A stretch of 64,000 nt of DNA, taken from NCBI GenBank assembly GCA_000316135.1, contig JH993935.1, forward strand, positions 86,461 through 150,460. The letters are read 5' to 3'. The notes below the pieces were generated by a model. The model was not told where the DNA came from, did not search any database, and saw nothing but the letters and a program-made list of their open reading frames with translations. Below, piece by piece: positions 3,249 to 60,222 of this stretch (within the stretch, counting starts at the first letter, position 1; each line of letters begins with the position of its first letter). The DNA comes from Trachipleistophora hominis (Eukaryota; Microsporidia; Pleistophoridae). A program made the position numbers and the translations under genes.

Positions 3249-3466
3249 GTTTTTTATTGAAAGTTAGTTTAATTATTTCTTCATATACACTACTTAATTT
3301 TTTTCACTAAAAGAGTTTTATTTAAAAATCCGGTGAATTACCTTCCACCTTATTCATTAGTCAGATCAATTATATCCTATCTCCTCATTGTCATCGGCAA
3401 AAACAATAATTCTCTCTTCGTCTCCTTTAGGGCTCAACCATGGCCATCGCCTTTGGTTCCGGAGGT
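3249..3466 (-). repeat. SINE-like element copy, split
   Basis: The 3' half (TTTTTTATTGAAAGTTAG onward, 3249-3300) and the 5' half (CCATGGCCATCGCCTTTGG, about 3437-3466) of the dispersed ~105-bp element lie in minus orientation, separated by about 100 bp of unrelated or decayed sequence. It borders the left side of a GC-rich island. Confidence 0.6.
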
Positions 3467-4080
3467 AACATCAAAGCTCACCAAACAAACATGTTCCACA
3501 TGGCTAAAACCGCAGTTTTGTTGGGTGAACCATGGACACAAATCAAAGTATGTCGCATAACGCGACAGGGACTTCAACCCTATGCTGACAACATACGAAC
3601 CATCCCCCTCCTCAGGCGCCCCAAGCTACTCCTGCCCTGAGGTATGCACATTTTGAAATAAATTCACACTTCACACAAGGCCTCATACTTTTGACCTTAG
3701 CACCAGACCTTCCTTCGACCTACAGCTGTTCATCATCACAGCCTATCCTCCCCCACCTCTCTGTATGATACGTGGGTGTGTCATTTCTCAACCGCATTAA
3801 GCGGTTCGTGCCTTTAAAGCAGACTTGTTGACCATCCTTCATCGGCGGGATAGCCGTGAGACTTAGTGCCATTCCATCTTCTGTATGAGGATACTGTGCT
3901 CGCGTCACGGGTATACCAAGTCCGTTTTGCGGGCATTTTTATTGTTGACAGCGTCGGAAGCATGCGTTGTCAGCAATCCTGAGCTAATAATCTGACTAGT
4001 AACACTGGCCGTACAGCCATCAACAAGCTGCACGTTTCCGCCCGGGACCACGTGGAGGTTGTTACTACCCCGGGCACAGA
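3467..4080 (-). mobile_element. GC-rich decayed mobile-element remnant
   Basis: This stretch is clearly richer in G+C than its surroundings. On the minus strand it holds two protein-like but start-less open fragments. One runs from about 4083 to a TGA at 3905-3907 and includes VVPGGNVQLVDG and NNKNARKTDLVYP. The next, in another frame (3720-3908), includes AQYPHTEDGMALS and CFKGTNRLMRL. The frames abut at the TGA, as if one coding region had suffered a frameshift. The island is bounded on both sides by copies of the SINE-like repeat in the same orientation. No domain is recognised; the association with the adjacent reverse-transcriptase fragment suggests remains of a retrotransposon. Confidence 0.5.
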
Positions 4081-4166
4081 CTACTTAATTAAACACGCTC
4101 TTCTAATCCGCTGAGACCGACCATGGCCACCAGCTTTTGATTTTTTATTAAAAGTCAGTTTAATTA
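4081..4166 (-). repeat. SINE-like element, tandem/permuted copy
   Basis: Minus-orientation copy with the parts in the order tail, then head: the conserved AATTAAACTGACTTTT tail (4147-4166) comes first on the minus strand, immediately followed by the AAAGC(T/C)GGTGGCCATGG head (4115-4138) and body. This is the junction expected between two tandem units. It sits directly after the reverse-transcriptase fragment. Confidence 0.65.
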
Positions 4167-6208: not shown

Positions 6209-7514
6209 GTAGGATCGCCAAATTGTTTTCTTTTATACCATTGAATTTTCGAAATGACACTTTTTCTTAAATCGATTTAAAAGGAGGTTTTGGCGAATTA
6301 ACTTTATTTCTGACGTGTTACAAAAACGTATAGCTTCCTTTACTTATATTTTTGGTTACACAGTAATTATTTAAAACATACATTCATTTATGTTGCAGGC
6401 GTAGGTATTCCAATAAGTATAACAAGCAATATAACCTTCAAAACACAATCAATGGATTTTTTCTTTATGGATCGATCATTAATCTCAAGAGAAACACGGC
6501 AATATAATAGAGATTAAACATGTTTAGTGCAGTATAAGTACTAGGAACTCAACATTTCAATGAAACGTATGCGTTAGCAAGCACAATAATTCGAAAATCT
6601 CATTTTTATTTAAAAAATAAATCAAAAATCATGGTTAGTTTAAGAAAAAAAGTAAAAAATTCGAGTTATATTATGACGTTTAAATTTTTTATGGTAAATT
6701 TATTCTATTGTATTCATAAACAAATGTTTAAAGCAGAAAAGATGTAACAATCAAGTGTTTTTTTTACGCAAAACAATTAACATTATATAGTGTTCGTATA
6801 TGGCTTAATATTTAACTCGGTTATAAATTATTTTTGTCCGAATTACATACATGCCAGTTATTTTCTAGCATTATTTTTGACTTATATGTTATTATAAGCT
6901 TTTATTTTATACTGTTCGGTAATTCTACGAAAGAGCAGGCTTATTTTGGCAAACTCTATTATATTTCGAAACATGTCAATAATTTCATGTTAAAAAAATG
7001 AAAATTAATATATTGTTTTCCAACAATATACAACAATAGCAATATTGTTTAAAAAATACACTGTAAAAACTTTTTAACAAATTATGTATTATTTTTCGTC
7101 TCAAAAACCATTTAATTTAAATTAGCATTATCAATAAAGAATTTCTTAGTGGAAATAATTAAGAAAATGTTTATAAACTATTGAAAGTTGTATTAATTGT
7201 TCATACACGGAATATAATATGAAGTTCCCAGCATTTCTCTGTCATGTAAAGTGGCCATAAGTTGATTTTAAACGGAATATTGTCGCAATTATTATTAATT
7301 CGAGCAGAAAGCATATTAATTTAGTATTTTTGCGCACTTTCATATTATAGTATTTCTTATTTTTTGAATTGGCGGTATATGGTCATTTAGATCAACCTTC
7401 AACTATATTTTCCAGCTGAAATGGTGTATTTTTTCTAAAAGTTATCTCAATAAACGTATTGGGTAGTTCGAATTTTTAGTTTGGCAGCAATTCTTACTCA
7501 TTGGTAAATATCAT
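6209..7514. other. Intergenic region, nothing recognised
   Basis: About 1.3 kb of very AT-rich DNA with no supported gene. Confidence 0.55.
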
Positions 7515-7612
7515 AGGCCGGTGGCCTTGTCGATCCCAGCGGACTAGAAGAGTAGGTTTGATTGGGTAGTGTGTATGGAGGAGATAATTAAACTGACTTT
7601 TTGTTAAAAAAA
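7515..7612 (+). repeat. SINE-like element copy
   Basis: Near full-length plus-orientation copy: AGGCCGGTGGCC head, ATCCCAGCGGACT core, AGGAGATAATTAAACTG and a GACTTTTTGTTAAAAAAA tail. The 5' CCATGAACCA segment is missing. No clear target-site duplication. Confidence 0.75.
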
Positions 7613-12687: not shown

Positions 12688-12784
12688 TATTTAATTAATT
12701 TTTTAACATTCCTCCAAACACCTATTTAATGTATTCTTCCTGGTGCTTTAGCACCCACCATAGTCGGTTGAGCCTTTAGTTCAC
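12688..12784 (-). repeat. Degenerate SINE-like element copy
   Basis: ATTTAATTAATTTTTTAACA, then a TTCTTCCTGGTGCTTTAGC core, then CACCATAGTCGGTTGAGCC follow the order of the element in minus orientation with many substitutions. A related block occurs at about 23800-23870. Confidence 0.5.
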
Positions 12785-13164
12785 AGTGTAATTTAGTCGA
12801 ACAAGCAAATTTTGGAACACACAAACCCTTTTGTGTCAGCAACTGGATTGAGAAAATTTACCGAAAAAACACAAAATGACATTTTAATACATTTATTCAA
12901 TAATAGCCATCGAAAAAAAATAAATGCTACGATCCGTAGAAAGAACGTCTAAAATCATCGAAACTGTAATCTGCATGCAGTATCCCCTTTCACCTGGTGA
13001 AGCGGGCGCAAGATAGTTAATAAATAGACACTTATCGTTATTGTTTGATGGTATGGAACGTTACATGATAAAAGGCCCCCCCCTTTTTGGTTTTATACCA
13101 AATATATTTTTGGAGAGAGATTGCCCGATAAATACATGTTAGTTTCTATGAATCAACGGTATTG

Positions 13165-13258
13165 AGACAATGGTCAGTGCTCAGCGCGCCAGAAAAGTTT
13201 CTTTGGCATGTGAGAAAATGTAAGGTGTTAATTAAAAGAACGTTCAATTGTAAAAAAA
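13165..13258 (+). repeat. Degenerate SINE-like element copy
   Basis: CAATGGTCAGTGCTCAGCGC, CGCCAGAAAAGTTT and a GTTAATTAAAAGAACGTTC tail match the plus-orientation element, and especially the copy at 19378-19467. Confidence 0.6.
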
Positions 13259-13527
13259 TACATGTTGGTTGCAAAAGTGAGGTGATGAAAAAAAACAAAG
13301 CAGTTTTGGTGAAAGGAAAACAATTCCGCAGGATAAGATAAAATACCAAGGAAAGATTTCTTACTTTAGAAATCACACATATTCAAGTAAATCTAAAGAT
13401 ATTCATTGTTAAAACGATAAATCCTGATTATTTGATCTCATTTGTATACATATTTATATCATCACTGACATTAATATCACGAACAACGGTGCTTGAAAGA
13501 CCTTTAAAATCACTCGATACATACAAT

Positions 13528-19101: not shown

Positions 19102-20926
19102 AATAATGGTGTGTTTTGGAACTATCTTTACTTGCAAAAAAATCATTTAATAAAAAATAACAATGTTATATTTTAGTTTTCGGTTGATAATCAATCCATT
19201 AATACTATAAGAAATTTCACAATATGTTACGCGCGGCAAGTTATATACTAATGAATATTCTGTGATGTTGCTGAAACGAGTGAAAATAGCGAGTAGGAGT
19301 TACAAAAACATTTTTTTAATTGAATTATTTGCTTGACAAGAAGTATACAAAGAATGTTGGGGTACACGATCGTTGAGATCATGGTCGGCGCTCAGCACAC
19401 CAAGAAAGCTTGTTTGGTGTGTGAGGAAATGTGAGATGTTAATTAAACGGACTTTCAAGCAAAAGAGTATGATTAAATGGCGGACATCCCTCAGCACTTA
19501 CTCCCTCTACAAATGAACTATCCTATAGGCAAACGAAAGATGCCAAAATCGCATGGTAACAACTAATACATCCTCGATAGTTCATAATTTTTACATTTGA
19601 GCCGAGATAATTATCCCCCATCTCTTCGCCCACACAGCTGCAGTTTCAACTCTTTATCGTATTCTAGGAAGTTGTCCTTCCTGTTATAATAATAAACGCA
19701 TCGTAGGCGTTATATATAAATATATCTGAACGATCATGTCTTACAGTATGCTTATTTTTTTCGTTTGCTTCCTGCAACCGCCAAAAATTAAGATTAAAAA
19801 GCTAATTGTACCAAAAAATTTTGTTTTATTATACGGTAGAATAATACAGTTGAGCAGATTTCTATAACTAAATTTAAAACCACCTCTCATTTCATTTATC
19901 TGTTGGAATATGAAATATATTTTAAAAGAACGAATTGCCAAAGTTTAAATTAAATAATTTAATTGGCTTGTAAATTGCATTTTAGTAATATTTATGTAAT
20001 TTGCACGTTTAATTGATAGGTATAAATATGTAATTTAACTGTATTTGGATTTGAATTTAATTTTTTAATAACAACGTAAATAATCAATTCAAAACGTAAT
20101 CGGCATATTTTTATCTATAATACCGGTATTTCTTGGTTGTTTAATATAAAACATGCAGTACAACGATTCAGTTGGCGTATCACTTTGTCGTTGTACAACA
20201 TAATTACTGTAATTGAACACCAAATTAGTTAAGTTAGTCCTAAGTTGATACCAAAACCATGACATTCATTAAAAATATTTATTTGCTTTTTTGACACTTT
20301 TTGGGATTTTTAGAGTTATTTTAATATTTATGAACTATCACCAATTCTTTGCCCGAATGTTTTAATATTTGTGTGGTATGTGGAAATAAATAATACTTTA
20401 TGAAAAAAGCTTTAATAGCTGTAACTACCCCATCAGGGCGATCAGTGAAACTAGGTTACTGCAAAAATACAATCAATCTATTTATTGACTTAGTTCAACA
20501 AAATGTTACCAATATTTACTTACCTCTTTGAATGAATCGCAATCTAATGCATTGTTTTGTAGTGATTTTGGTATAAACGCTATTTCATGATCACGTTACT
20601 TAACGAAACATCATATAATTTCTAATTATCTTTGCGTACAATACCACAGAATGATCACTAATCAACTCAACAATTTTTACAGAATATTACCAGTTGATGA
20701 CGTGGAAATATGCCGCCAAATTTATTTAAACATATCTAACATGTTTCAAATATCCATAGCAAAATAAATACTATCGTTATATGCCACTATTAACTAGAAC
20801 TGCATATTCTACTCGTTCTTTAAACTCAATTTATTACATAAAATCGTTCTATTATATCTCTTTTGATAATTAAAATATTTGACAAATCAATTGTGATAAT
20901 AATGGATAAATTTATTAACCCCTTTT
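19102..20926. other. Long intergenic region with one SINE-like copy
   Basis: Contains the element at 19378-19467. Otherwise no supported gene; short AT-rich frames here open with TTG and look like noise. Confidence 0.5.
19378..19467 (+). repeat. SINE-like element copy, diverged
   Basis: ATCATGGTCGGCGCTCAGCA, CACCAAGAAAG, GATGTTAATTAAACGGACTT and an A-rich end match the element in plus orientation; the 5' AAAGGCCGGTGG is lost. Confidence 0.65.
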
Positions 20927-22746: not shown

Positions 22747-23212
22747 TTTTCTTGTTATGAATGATAGGCATGATGGTTATTTGTTGTTATTAAGGCTCAA
22801 CATACTGCAATGGCCTTGGCTGGTCAATACTCTTTAAGTACACATCAACAAGTATTTTATCAAAGCTTTCACCAGCAACTGGCTCGTTAGCTCTTACGTC
22901 ATTATTTATGCTGGTAATAACCCAGGACATCTAATATGACCGATAAGATAAGTGTTATTCCTATTGTCTTGTGGTCATTGACTCTGTAGTAGCATCATCC
23001 TTGTTAATAACCTTTGCATGGTTATTATTATCCTCTTAAATGGTTAATTAATTAACCAATTAACTTTTTATCGCTCTTATTAAATGTAAATGTAGGCCAC
23101 TACAAAACCATTCATGATATGTAAGGCTTGTTTGTCACCGGGGGTTTATCTTTAATTGATACATAACACAAAATAAGAAACAAACGATTAACTTCATAGA
23201 AACACCGCCTCA

Positions 23213-23288
23213 GCAGACCAGAAAAGTGAGATGGATTGGATGATATGTTTTAAGAAAATAATTAAACCGACTTTTACTAAAACAATTC
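23213..23288 (+). repeat. SINE-like element copy, 5' truncated
   Basis: GCAGACCAGAAAAG, GGATGATATGTT and ATAATTAAACCGACTTTTAC follow the plus-orientation element from its middle to its tail; the GGCC head is absent. Confidence 0.7.
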
Positions 23289-23684
23289 GTAAAAACACCC
23301 ATAAAATCAAATGTTTGCTATAAAAATTACATTTTTACATTCTGATTGTCGTAGTGTAATACACCACTACTACCATCGTTCTAAATATGATAATTATTCG
23401 ACCATCATGTTGGACATGATAGATAAAAACTTAGTTTACATTCCAATACTTATAATTTTAGATAGAGAATAACACAAATATAAAAATGCCGCATTGAAAA
23501 GAGAAACATGTTCGTAGAGCATTATCGTTATCTATTCAAAGAATATGATCCTCCATAATCATTGTTATAAGCTCCTATATTATCCCACTCTGTATAAAAG
23601 ATATTAAACCTATCAGTTCCCTTTCATATACAAAGTATATTACGTATGATTAAACAATCCACTGTTAAGTAATGATTAATCATT

Positions 23685-30595: not shown

Positions 30596-30694
30596 AAAGT
30601 ATGTTTATTTATCTCCTTCATATTCACTACCTAACTAAACACACTCTTCTGGTCCGCTGGGACAGACCATGGCCACCGACCTTTGGGTTATGGA
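30596..30694 (-). repeat. SINE-like element copy 70 bp after a stop codon
   Basis: TTTATTTATCTCCTTCATA, ACTCTTCTGGTCCGCTGGG and ACCATGGCCACCGACCTTTG match the element in minus orientation. Flanking ATGGTGATAAG (about 30532-30542) and ATGGTGATAGG (about 30695-30705) could be a target duplication, but the left copy lies about 50 bp outside the recognisable element. Confidence 0.7.
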
Positions 30695-34701: not shown

Positions 34702-35310
34702 ATCCAGTATTAGTATTATATTTACGATCTTGCCAATCAAAAAGAAACAGAAGCAGATTTATGAAACGCCTATTTCGGGAAAGAATACTGTTTAATAGTT
34801 GATTGAATGTTTTACTCTTAACGGTATTTAATATAAAAATACATACTTTTATTTCTGTGGCTAACGATGCTTATTAAAAAACTTGAAACAAAGAAACGAG
34901 CTATTTAAAATTATTTACCAATCGACTACTATTGAAAGGAAACTTGACAACTTGTAATGCCAGTCCGAATTCAATAATGGTGGATAAGATGAATTGGTAA
35001 ATGGATGTGTTGTGATCGACTAAGGGGACTTATTGTAGGAATTTTCGGTGTTGCAGTCTCGATTGACTCATCTGCTCCAAGTTATTGCCATAATGGTTAT
35101 AATTGAAGTTTAAATTTGTCTTTTTCGATCATAATTAGTTCTTTTATCTGTTCTGTTGAAAATAACTGATTGAGAGTTATAGCTTTTCATTTTTTAGTAT
35201 TAGCTCATACTGAAGTATAATAAGCATTTTGATGGCCCTATTTATACCACGAAACGCTATTTTTACATAGAAAAATTTGTTTGTATCAATTAACTGTATT
35301 TATTTGATAA
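34702..35310. other. Intergenic region, nothing recognised
   Basis: AT-rich DNA after the decayed gene, up to the target duplication of the next repeat. Confidence 0.5.
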
Positions 35311-35444
35311 AATAAATTTTACTCCATGAACCAAAGGCCGGTGGCCATGGTTGGTCCCAGCGGACCAGAAGGGTGTGTTTAGTTAAATGATATGTTATAA
35401 GGTGATAATTAAACTAACATTTTATAAAAAAAATAAATTTTACT
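35311..35444 (+). mobile_element. SINE-like element with perfect 13-bp target duplication
   Basis: Element 35324-35431: CCATGAACCAAAGGCC head, GGTGGCCATGG, a GGTCC-CAGC-GGACC hairpin, GATAATTAAACTAAC, and an ATTTTATAAAAAAA end. It is flanked by identical direct repeats AATAAATTTTACT at 35311-35323 and 35432-35444. The target duplication plus an A-rich 3' end is the signature of a retroposed short element. Confidence 0.85.
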
Positions 35445-36675
35445 TGCTTCTGTAATTAATATAAAGAAACGTTGTTACATTTTTATAGTCTTGTAATGTA
35501 AGTACAAAGTAATAAAGAACGCACAAATTAACATTTGTCATTACAGACACTGTTGAATCAACAACTAATAAATTTTTGACTCAACATATTCTGTCTATTC
35601 GCCATTTTGAGTCAACTTTTTTTATTTCCTTGACAGTATCAGCTTTTATGCAATGAATGGATTATATAATACCTAATAAACCCTACCTATTTCACTTACA
35701 CCTCAATTAATGTAGGTATATTGTATGTTTTCTATTTATCTACTGTCTGCATGTTTTAGACCCGTTTAAATTTTGTTATCTAGGCCTGCAATAACTGAAA
35801 TGTTCCGTATGAAAAACTCAAACTATAGAAGCGGAAACGATAATGCATTTTAATCCTCTATTTTGGTTATATCATGTCTCTAATACGCTATAAAGATATG
35901 AAATTTTGATTTAATTGTCGATACCGTATTCAGTTATTAAAAAACTAAATTAAATTACTTCTTGATAATAAATAAAATGAATTGTCATAACACATCCACA
36001 TAATTTCATGAGTACTAAACCACAAAATATATAAATCATTACCAATATTAGCAGAAAGACGCTCCAAATCGGATTGTCCAACTTATGGAAAAAAATTTTG
36101 CTCAGTTCTTCGACAATAAATAAGAAAAGAACACGTTTTTATCTAATTTTCACGTTCTGAAATTTACTATATAATCACTTACGGCCGATATTTGCAACAA
36201 ATATATTATCGATCAGCAAGTCATTTGTAAACTCCCTAAAATGAAATCATGTAGAAAAATTTGACGGAAAGAAAAATTGGAGCTATTCGAGAGTTGTTTA
36301 TTAAGGTGGCGCCAATTTAACTTTCATATTATAAATAGACCGGTGTAATTAATTACATTTGTAAATATATTGCAAGACAGGATAGAACTTAAACGCTTAT
36401 TTTTTGATTAGTAGTGCTTTGTTTATTTTCAATATACACCTTTTGTGGTCTTATGGGGCTTACCATGGTCATCAACTTCAAATACTGATTAAATAAAAAT
36501 AATTAATTAGAACATACTTCAGTCGAACGTTGAGGAGAGTACATGTTATGCCACGTATTATTCCTCCTTGATAGTTCCATTCAAACATACGTTGTCATAA
36601 AATAACTCTTTAAGTGCCTAATAAACAATAAGGTGTTCATAATATTTAAAATGGTGAAATAGTGCTATACCACAA
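35445..36675. other. Intergenic region with a degraded repeat
   Basis: AT-rich DNA. A degraded minus-orientation SINE-like copy lies at about 36402-36483 (GGGGCTTACCATGGTCATCA is its clearest part). No supported gene. Confidence 0.5.
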
Positions 36676-36795
36676 TTTTTATTAAAATTCGGTTTAATTA
36701 TCTCCTTCATAAACACTACCTAATCAAACATGTTCTTCTAATCCGCTGGAACCGACCATAGCCACCGGCCTTTGATTTATGGTACTATACCATAA
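36663..36795 (-). mobile_element. SINE-like element with imperfect 13-bp target duplication
   Basis: Element 36676-36782, minus orientation: TTTTTATTAAAATTCGGTTT, ATCTCCTTCATAAACACTAC, TCTTCTAATCCGCTGG, CCACCGGCCTTTGATTTATG. Flanks are TGCTATACCACAA (36663-36675) and TACTATACCATAA (36783-36795), 11 of 13 identical. Confidence 0.8.
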
Positions 36796-37115
36796 TTACA
36801 CCGTTTGTCCTGATTTTCACTTATATTTGACCGTAAAAGTACTGCTAACAAATTAGGAATAAATAACTTAAACTAAAAACCAAGAAAGTCAAATAAACAC
36901 AATAAAATCATATTTTATCGAAGAAATTTATTACAGAAACCACATGTTTTAGAAGGTTTGTAATGTTCCAATAACGCTATTCTCATTATAATTCTAAAAT
37001 GATTAGCACGCGAATCTCAATATTCATGGAATTAAATAACAATAAATTTTAGGTCAAAAAAACGAAACAATCGTTCACAGAAGAATTTTTTATGATTGCT
37101 TTATTTATCATTTTT

Positions 37116-52337: not shown

Positions 52338-54527
52338 GTGATGGGGTTAAAAAATGAGAATGGTTAAAAGGCTGTGAAGAAACATGGACAACGAGTAGAA
52401 TGGGAAGACTGCCAACGGTGAAACATCGTTTTATCGAGATCAGTAATGATAAATTATGTTTTTTGTATTAAATGGTATTAAAGAGCAGGCTAGTGAACAG
52501 AAAAGTGTGGTTTAAGATGTATGACATAATAAATAAGGGCGTATTAAATAAAAAGACGTTTTACTAAAAGATAAATAACATCTTTAGTAAGAAACGTGCA
52601 TATTCTCTAACGTAGAAAAGTAAATCGTATAAAAGGTTAGAATACAAAAACGTTTTATTTCCATTTTTCTTGGAAAAACATATTTAATTTATTAGCAACG
52701 TTTTATGGGTGCAATATAAACGAGAGCTGTAAAGATTTACGGCCCTAATAATATATTAAAGCGATGAACACGTCATCAAATCTGTAAATTAATTTTATAG
52801 AAACGTAATTAATAATAAGTACGGCCTGTGACAAATACATTTCCTGTTTTAGAAAAATGATTTATTATGATCATGACCTTAAGTAAAATTTTCAATCATA
52901 ACTCGCAGGTAAACACCGTACAGGTCTATAAAAGTATCAAGGTTGTGTCTTATATTGTAGCATTGTCTTATCAATACTAAATATCAAGAAATGTAAGACT
53001 TGTATGTCCTAAGAGATCTATCTTTAATCAATATATAACAAGAAATACTTGTCATTACTTGATTTTATTTCAAAACACTTATATTTTCCAACCATAATAT
53101 TTTTGTAAAAAATCTTTAGTCGATGTTCTATCTTCAGTATCACAGCATTAACGCTAAGGAGATATTATATGATATAATATTTTATATTGGTTGGTCTCAA
53201 TGTGCACAAACGATTTATACATACTTTAAATTGTTATTTCATGTTAATAAATTTGTTTAAAAGTATTTTTATCAATCTTTAATACACATGTGAAATAAAT
53301 GATAAAGAACATTTTAAATAAGGCCTGATATTTAGATTTACCGTATCTGTAACGTTTTTACATTCATTTTTGGGTTAGGTGATGCGTGTGGTGATAAAAA
53401 AAAAAGGGCGAAAATCGTTTCGTAAAAAACGTTATTCAGGCAGTTAATGGTATTAGCATAGTTAATTATACCTGAAGGAATAAATTATACAACATAAACT
53501 ATTAAAACGGTAATCATTTTGGTATACATTACGTAAAATACTACAAAGATTTGCATATCTGCAGCAAAATAATGCTATCCTTGTAACACAACCGGACACT
53601 TAGACCATCGCTTTAAGATAGAAAGCATTATTTACAAATTTGGGCCTGAATTATGGTGCTAATATAGATTGGTGCGTTTTATTTGAGCGTAATATAATTC
53701 AACTGGATCGAATTTATTACTAAACAAGTTTTTTAAAAATGTTGATATTAAAGAGCTTTAACATGCAATAACTGGTACAACAATAGGAAAACTTTCTTGC
53801 TACTTTAAAGTAGACATGAGCATATGAGAACTTTACGTAGAATTAGCGCGAAAGAATTAAATGCTTTTATTAAAAAAGGTTTCTAAACTTTTAACAATTC
53901 TAACGGATCAGTCAGAACGCTCTTCCTGCTACAAATATTTCAGTTTAAATGAAATATATAAACTGGTGTAACACATAATACCGTTAAACGTTCACTTAAC
54001 TCATCGATAATAATTATTTTTAGAGACACCTTTTACCAATATAATTTTATCCTGCAGTACTATTCACATGCTAATCTGTTATTTGAACCAATAAATCATT
54101 AATTATATGTACGAAACGCCTTATAATTCTGAATAAACAAAAATAATTGAACCTGTCATGAAACTATCCTTTACTGTATAGAAAACCATTTTAAGTTCTT
54201 ATTAAACATTATACTTCTATTAAAGGGCGTAAAGCACGAGAAAATAGTAGATGTCATCATAAATGATTATAATAAGTTCTATTAAAAGTACGTATGAAGT
54301 GGTGATGAGAAAAAAAGTAACGATAAATTTCTGATCAAAAGTAGAAGTTTTACTCCGAACGATAAAATAATTTGCTTGAAAAACATTACAATGATACTTT
54401 TTTTGTAACTAACAATAGTACCGCTAATGTTAACAACAGATCTTACGATCGTTATCTCATTATACACGGTTATGCTACACCGCCTTCTTTAAATATTAGC
54501 AATTGCTCAAAATTTACCTTGGCTATG
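52338..54527. other. Long intergenic region, nothing recognised
   Basis: About 2.2 kb of very AT-rich DNA; no supported gene. Confidence 0.5.
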
Positions 54528-54655
54528 AATGAGATATTATCTTTTTAAAGTAAAGGTTAGTTTAATTGTCTCCTTCATACACTCTATCTGATCAACTAAC
54601 TCTTCTAGGACCGATCATGGTCACTAGCCTTTAGTTCATGGAATGAGGTTCTATC
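54528..54655 (-). mobile_element. SINE-like element with 14-bp target duplication
   Basis: Element 54542-54641, minus orientation (GTTAGTTTAATTGTCTCCTT, CTCTTCTAGGACCGATCATG, TAGCCTTTAGTTCATGG). Flanks are AATGAGATATTATC (54528-54541) and AATGAGGTTCTATC (54642-54655), 11 of 14 identical. It lies about 200 bp upstream of the V-ATPase subunit d start. Confidence 0.8.
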
Positions 54656-54854
54656 GTTTTATTAATGAGCGAATAACTTTCTATTTCCTAATATAAACGA
54701 GTTACCTTAAAGAACCGGTCCTTCAAAACACTTTATTTCGTATGTATAGGGTAAAATAAAATAAAAATCGTAAAGAATACTTTTGTTTGGTACGTGGTGA
54801 TCGTCGTGCATTTATTTTCAACCAATCTTAAACCATTTTTTGGTTACCCTTGGA

Positions 54855-60118: not shown

Positions 60119-60222
60119 TGAGTATTCGTTTAATTAATCCTCATAATTCGCCTACATTCAAACAAACTCCCTTGGGGCACAAGCACCTACTATGGTCTTT
60201 TATGACCTTTGATTTATGATCC
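60119..60222 (-). repeat. Diverged SINE-like element copy
   Basis: GTTTAATTAATCCTCATAAT, ACATTCAAACAAACTCCC, TACTATGGTC and ACCTTTGATTTATGATCC follow the element in minus orientation. No clear target duplication. Confidence 0.6.

Follow-up and report, generated by a model that had tools for sequence, protein, structure and literature searches.

The window, that is, the whole stretch of 64,000 nucleotides of Trachipleistophora hominis DNA analysed here, contains twelve copies of a repeat of about 105 bp, which were found by a profile search with scores of 20-91 bits. The same profile returned no match of at least 15 bits in 20 randomised windows (first-order Markov, Ns removed), and the many-copy recurrence on which the original prediction was founded is thereby confirmed. 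All twelve copies are located outside the 37 open reading frames of at least 100 amino acids in the window, and all are short copies, none being linked to a non-LTR retrotransposon (LINE).

The copy from which the analysis set out (35324..35429, forward strand; hereafter the query copy) is a type A short element with an A-rich 3' end, recognised by profile match and flanked by target-site duplications of 15 bp that are identical at 15/15 positions (35309..35323 on the left and 35430..35444 on the right, forward strand). Further type A short elements are located at 30596..30692 (reverse strand, without a duplication at a score of at least 8), at 36686..36781 (reverse; duplications 36785-36797 and 36665-36677, 12/13), at 7511..7600 (forward; profile match with a diverged 5' end), at 54553..54640 (reverse; most of hairpin 2, described below, is missing; duplications 54641-54661 and 54527-54547, 17/21) and at 4076..4142 (reverse; profile match with the 3' part missing or diverged, and outside the duplication test), while a 5' truncated type A element lies at 23207..23274 (forward; duplications 23193-23206 and 23286-23299, 12/14). 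Type B is represented by a short element at 13148..13244 (forward; duplications 13130-13144 and 13256-13270, 14/15) and by a 5' truncated short element at 19370..19455 (forward; profile match). Old diverged copies, also recognised by profile match, occur on the reverse strand at 60126..60218, 3359..3459 and 12689..12783, and the last of these is like a third, rarer subtype (L048:2712-2806, C111:8550), in which hairpin 2 is rebuilt around GTGC/GCAC. Most of the positions given earlier for the repeat (7515, 30596, 36676, 54542, 4081, 12688, 13165, 19378, 23213 and 60119) correspond to these copies; that at 3249 was not recovered as a separate copy, and a diverged one lies at 3359-3459.

Copy number and target-site duplications

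The assembly that contains the window comprises 5.5 Mb in 119 contigs. Its MCM5 is microsporidian, the nearest named hit being that of Pseudoloma neurophilia (62%) and the nearest unnamed hit reaching 92%. The genome-wide tail searches gave 130 and 145 candidates, the best 40 being scored in each, against 34 matches for the C-terminal part of the LINE. The profile was made from 125 aligned copies. The element is short, non-coding, dispersed and multicopy, as canonical SINEs are, with 12 copies in the window and 152 distinct loci in the DNA examined, short and LINE-linked copies pooled. Copies number 12 per 64 kb in the window, and other loci totalling 197 kb give 12.3 per 64 kb once 20 bait copies are subtracted. 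Extrapolation to 5.5 Mb gives, very roughly, 1,000 copies, the comparison loci having been chosen as copy-bearing. Since the copies were collected as best matches, younger ones are over-represented among them. A pattern scan of viral contigs gave no match.

In the duplication test, which covered 133 copies minus 11 without a 3' end, the left flank of each copy was compared with its own right flank, and the right flanks of the other copies served as the control in 60 reshufflings. At a score of at least 9, duplications were found in 26 of the 64 full-length short copies (1.5 expected) and in 10 of the 30 5' truncated short copies (1.3 expected), and at the CATG boundary of the LINE-linked copies in 0 of 28 (0.02 expected). 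The duplications of the 26 full-length copies are 9-25 bp long, mostly 9-16 bp, and they mostly end 0-3 nt before CATGAACC, which marks about where the element starts; they are thus of variable length at fixed element ends, as in canonical SINEs. Duplications of this kind are marks of target-primed reverse transcription in non-LTR elements. Within the window, duplications at a score of at least 8 were found in 5 of the 11 copies with a testable 3' end; at this score about 3.7 of the 64 full-length and 2.7 of the 30 truncated copies would be expected by chance, so that the weakest of the five may be a chance match. The flanking direct repeats reported earlier are upheld, including the perfect 15-bp repeat of the query copy.

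For the LINE-linked copies, the result depends on where the 5' end is placed. At their own 5' ends, duplications were found in 4 of 24 copies at score 9, a slight excess over the 1.55 expected, in 3 of 24 at a score of at least 10 (0.59 expected) and in 2 of 24 at a score of at least 11 (0.07 expected), including one perfect 13-mer. With the 5' ends placed by the profile, there is no excess at score 9 (2 of 22 against 1.64 expected). Since the LINE-linked duplications are near chance at score 9, the proposal that the same insertion machinery serves both kinds of copies rests on few cases.

Head-to-tail pairs were also observed, at L009:4856-5048, L013:4925-5116 and L029:316-517, where the second element starts in the A-run of the first and, in L009 and L013, is 5' shortened. 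This is the arrangement that a preference for A-rich target DNA would produce.

A LINE 3' UTR with a fixed 5' end

A common upstream sequence was present in fifteen of the copies. Among 25 LINE-linked copies whose 5' end is intact, a stop triplet was found at -10 to -8 in 20 (16 TAA, 3 TGA and 1 TAG), that is, 8-10 nt before CATGAACC, and at least 30 open codons precede the stop place in 16 of the 25. Many of the coding ends are variants of DLRVKVTAAVAAYLSVVMRVRAKALREAAH, and matches to the LINE C-terminus number 34 genome-wide, all 33 candidates having been scored. The genome contains nine matches to the reverse transcriptase domain RVT_1, of which six, at four places (C111, C107, C12 and C21), are followed by the tail, so that the partner carries a reverse transcriptase of the non-LTR kind; a seventh (L049) has the LINE C-terminal sequence without a tail match in the stretch examined. 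The best match of a 116-aa piece of the reverse transcriptase is the R2 retrotransposon structure, with LINE-1 ORF2 next, and over 78% of its length the piece is identical to a 91-aa NCBI protein. A genome search for the APE-type endonuclease families PF14529 and PF03372 had no match, but all LINE copies observed are broken and 5' shortened. As the stop codons, the open frames and the links with RVT_1 and with the C-terminus together indicate, the element is, end to end, the 3' UTR of a resident LINE. This link was absent from the original prediction, which had proposed a comparison with resident LINE 3' ends as a check. A 3' end common to a resident LINE is again a canonical feature of SINEs.

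Some further features of the reverse transcriptase loci were seen in our own reading of them. The reverse transcriptase frame of L047 (C108) resembles a Ty3-type LTR element, with a stop within the matched stretch, and that of L050 (C16) is similar to the Ty3-like frame of L047. Large LRR-like open reading frames adjoin LINE remnants in L048/L053 (C111), L051 (C107) and L052 (C12), and they recall the LRR family of T. hominis that is treated in parts of PMC4654818.

The short copies differ from a LINE truncation series, in which the 5' ends would be spread along the LINE. As a group, their homology with the LINE ends 2 nt upstream of CATGAACC. In the 50 full-length type A short copies, the LINE base is matched at -1 (C) in 82% against a background of 13%, and at -2 (T) in 72% against 34%; the match falls to 18% at -3 and 10% at -4 (background 13%) and stays near background beyond, with T at -3 in 50% of the copies against 34% background. 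The 19 type B copies match the LINE in 68% at -1 and in 68% at -2. Among the 94 short copies that retain their 3' end, 64 share this start in that they reach the first 8 profile positions, and the pile-up at one boundary, with homology ending at -2, is not that of a random truncation series. The remaining 30 start inside the element, so that the length, called constant earlier, is not strictly so. Of these, 17 start within profile positions 19-30, near the 3' strand of hairpin 1 and thus roughly where an enzyme coming from the 3' end would first encounter this hairpin. The LINE-linked copies have scattered 5' ends, the nearest 67-90 nt and the farthest more than 3000 nt upstream, some being limited by the DNA examined. 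With the duplications and the fixed 5' end in most copies, the earlier view of an RNA-mobilised, non-autonomous element distinct from a plain LINE truncation series holds.

It was also observed that several LINE copies, among them those in L016, L018, L019 and L083, have their starts clustered in a stretch of about 15 nt, at 123-137 nt before the tail, which could be a second preferred 5' truncation point. A 22-bp palindrome, CACGCAAGTCATGACTTGCGTG, follows a little further downstream in the coding end of the LINE (L012, L021 and L025).

Subfamilies and their histories

The two subfamilies have had two different histories. In a tree of the 89 full-length copies scoring at least 45, taken from the 152 loci, type B forms one clade of 16 copies, all short, with support of 100/99, and type A comprises 25 LINE-linked and 48 short copies, which are interleaved. 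The alignment behind the tree offers 97 columns for the 89 rows, most forks are open and the bootstrap had not settled. The LINE-linked and short labels change 18 times, and at least 6 of the changes are forced by well-supported branches within type A; the LINE label is nevertheless somewhat clustered, since the shuffled mean is 22.0 changes and 14 of 500 shuffles are as low. Owing to this interleaving, recurrent production of type A short copies from LINE RNA is as likely as a single autonomous lineage. L061 is 'B, LINE' by its score, yet it groups with type A in the tree.

With a type B query, 41 matches were listed (the best 40 of 79 candidates), and no LINE C-terminal match, of the 34 known, occurs within 800 bp of any of them. 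The DNA upstream of type B was examined at 16 places and at the copies already collected, and a LINE too diverged for the C-terminal query could be attached to some type B copies.

One copy of the third subtype, L048:2712, is counted as LINE-linked and is included among the 28 copies of the duplication tests and the 25 of the stop-codon check, although it sits inside the LINE and not at the LINE end; it is absent from the tree. Model positions 1-134 of the LINE precede it and positions 111-403 follow it, with positions 111-134 on both sides, an arrangement compatible with an insertion that duplicated about 24 bp.

RNA structure

Three hairpins were modelled from the folds of single copies together with pair counts on an alignment of 48 of 86 copies, hand-picked for diversity. 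In single-copy folding, hairpins 1 and 2 and a long 3' stem (hairpin 3) were obtained in 4 of 6 copies, with a different hairpin 1 in L019 and none of the three in L024, and the folding z-scores of the six ranged from -0.2 to -2.3. RNAalifold, when applied to the 48-copy alignment, retained three pairs only.

The support is clearest for hairpin 2, the GGTCC-CAGC-GGACC hairpin that had been noticed in the sequence, which is real and covaries. It is paired in 87% of the cells, and 26 cells are changed on both sides, compared with 9.8 +/- 2.4 after shuffling, none of 500 shuffles being as high. The compensatory signal is mostly one split between types A and B, and the count was made after one loop gap had been shifted, which favours hairpin 2 somewhat. 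Hairpin 3 is paired in 92% of the cells against 31-57% when slid, and its both-sided changes show no clear excess (5 against 2.7 shuffled, 66 of 500 shuffles as high, and 4-8 in slid versions). The inner stem of hairpin 1 is 91% paired, with 21 of 500 shuffles as good, and its outer stem does not exceed the shuffles, 459 of 500 doing as well.

An alternative arrangement was considered as well, in which the 5' CATG pairs with the CATG of GGCCATGG. Over these four pairs 158 of 178 cells are paired. The resulting order of helices recalls HDV-type ribozymes. Such an HDV-like fold was rejected: it has no Rfam match, one of the bases involved (column 27) differs from T in 12 of the 48 rows, and the outer stem of hairpin 1, as the alternative, comes close in pairing with 160 of 192 cells.

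How the element may have spread

We consider it very probable that the repeat is a SINE-like non-autonomous retroelement of about 105 bp that consists solely of the LINE 3' UTR, has a fixed RNA start and is moved in trans by the LINE reverse transcriptase through target-primed reverse transcription. The element RNA would start at a fixed point, about TC|CATGAACC, some 6 nt past the LINE stop codon, and would end in a short A-run. The reverse transcriptase of the LINE would recognise the shared 3' structure, and target-primed reverse transcription into AT-rich DNA would then give rise to duplications of mostly 9-16 bp and to some 5' truncations. Of this picture, the number of copies, the duplications, the 5' boundary, the match with the LINE tail, the covarying hairpin and the two histories are shown. 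From the shared tail we infer that mobilisation in trans by the resident LINE proceeds through this common 3' structure, and the unit itself would appear to set the 5' end of its RNA, by an internal promoter or by 5' processing. Type B is seen as short copies only and has kept this end, so that the determinant of the 5' end would be carried by the 105 nt. A more far-reaching proposal, which is plausible without being the likelier outcome, is that the 3' UTR is a self-sufficient launching unit, that each LINE lineage sheds its own SINE and that type B has spread by itself; here the 105 nt would fix the 5' end by an internal promoter or by self-cleavage or host cleavage near the stop.

The spread could also proceed in two steps, a version that does not compete with the main explanation and that we regard as possible but rather unlikely. 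The LINE RNA would be cleaved after the stop codon, by a host nuclease or by itself, and the 3' UTR retrotransposed, type B being a lineage whose LINE died out or diverged. The forced label changes in type A, at least six in number, agree with this, as do the sharp boundary and the structured RNA. However, a search with one copy found no match among 4227 Rfam families up to E 10, known ribozymes included, and a spread of type B without a LINE would still need a promoter, or read-through followed by cleavage.

Improbable, in our judgement, is the explanation of the short copies as dead-on-arrival LINE copies, in which the reverse transcriptase, working on full-length LINE RNA, stops at a hotspot just 5' of the 3' UTR. 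Although short and LINE-linked type A copies from the same subfamilies are intermingled, and internal truncations do occur with a concentration about hairpin 1, the boundary is sharp and lies 5' of all the modelled hairpins. An enzyme coming from the 3' end would already be past the structure there, and a polymerase stalled by structure would have halted earlier. The type B clade also speaks against a hotspot, none of its 16 copies being LINE-linked and none of the 41 matches listed being near a LINE C-terminus.

A Pol III SINE of the canonical kind, in which a degenerate tRNA-like head is joined to the LINE tail, is very improbable and already largely refuted. The stretch GGTCGGTCCCA, which the original prediction took to be weakly like a B box, and a TTTT near the 3' end of type A would suit it. 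However, the best B box matches of the two subfamilies are reached by 691 and 796 of 1000 shuffles, and the best A box matches by 940 and 969 of 1000, so that both are at chance; the B-box reading is thus not supported. No small-RNA head was matched in Rfam, which leaves an origin from tRNA, 5S or 7SL, a comparison suggested earlier, without support, and the LINE tail accounts for the whole of the element. Among 23 clear type B 3' ends, 14 are CTTTC and only 4 are CTTTT. The element therefore shows neither the head nor a visible internal Pol III promoter of a canonical SINE, and it is not a SINE in the strict sense.

Finally, a MITE-type DNA transposon, or a conserved RNA gene or UTR, has next to no probability, for although the element is short, hairpin-rich and outside the open reading frames of the window, terminal inverted repeats and duplications of fixed length were not found (the two ends of the query copy do not form inverted repeats, and the duplications vary from 9 to 25 bp), the A-rich 3' end and 5' truncation do not suit a MITE, and an orthologous RNA gene would not be expected at a dozen places per 64 kb, each with its own duplication.

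Comparison with known elements

The head of a SINE usually goes back to a small RNA gene, a LINE being the source of the tail alone. In pairs of the stringent type the two elements have just the tail in common, and the SINE has a separate head in front of it. Other non-autonomous elements, namely the R2 SIDE, the trypanosome RIME/NARTc and the Entamoeba EhSINE, carry the ends of a resident LINE and keep the 5' part or other sequence besides the 3' UTR. The T. hominis element differs from the stringent pairs in that the whole of it is LINE tail, compared with the tail only in those pairs.

According to portions of PMC3747384, the eel SINE/LINE, maize ZmSINE2/3 with LINE1-1_ZM and Chlamydomonas SINEX-3_CR with L1-1_CR are pairs of the stringent type, which share the 3' end, some with a conserved stem-loop and some ending in poly(A). 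The T. hominis element is like them in having a structured 3' end in common with its LINE, a usual trait of such pairs (PMC3747384).

Dong-R4 type LINEs are the most abundant retroelements in Microsporidia sp. MB, as stated in part of PMC13174016. They are non-LTR elements like the partner LINE, whose own likeness lies in the reverse transcriptase piece that matches R2 best. In T. hominis itself, non-LTR elements are described in part of PMC3486916 as multicopy LINEs with frameshifts, and the reverse transcriptase piece shares 76% identity, over 42% of its length, with a T. hominis non-LTR protein; Table 1 of PMC4202319 gives nine LINE families. The word SINE does not appear in the main texts of PMC3486916, PMC4202319 and PMC13174016. 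By title and the start of the abstract, no paper on a microsporidian SINE was found in the open literature, which leaves aside subscription papers and supplements, and this absence does not prove that such an element is unpublished.

The element would add a SINE-like class to the microsporidia. Being all tail and fixed-ended, and occurring in one genome both among LINE-linked copies (type A) and separately from them (type B), it provides a test of SINE birth. If the reading of the 3' UTR as a self-sufficient launching unit is true, it would mean the origin of a SINE from a LINE without a tRNA, 5S or 7SL gene.
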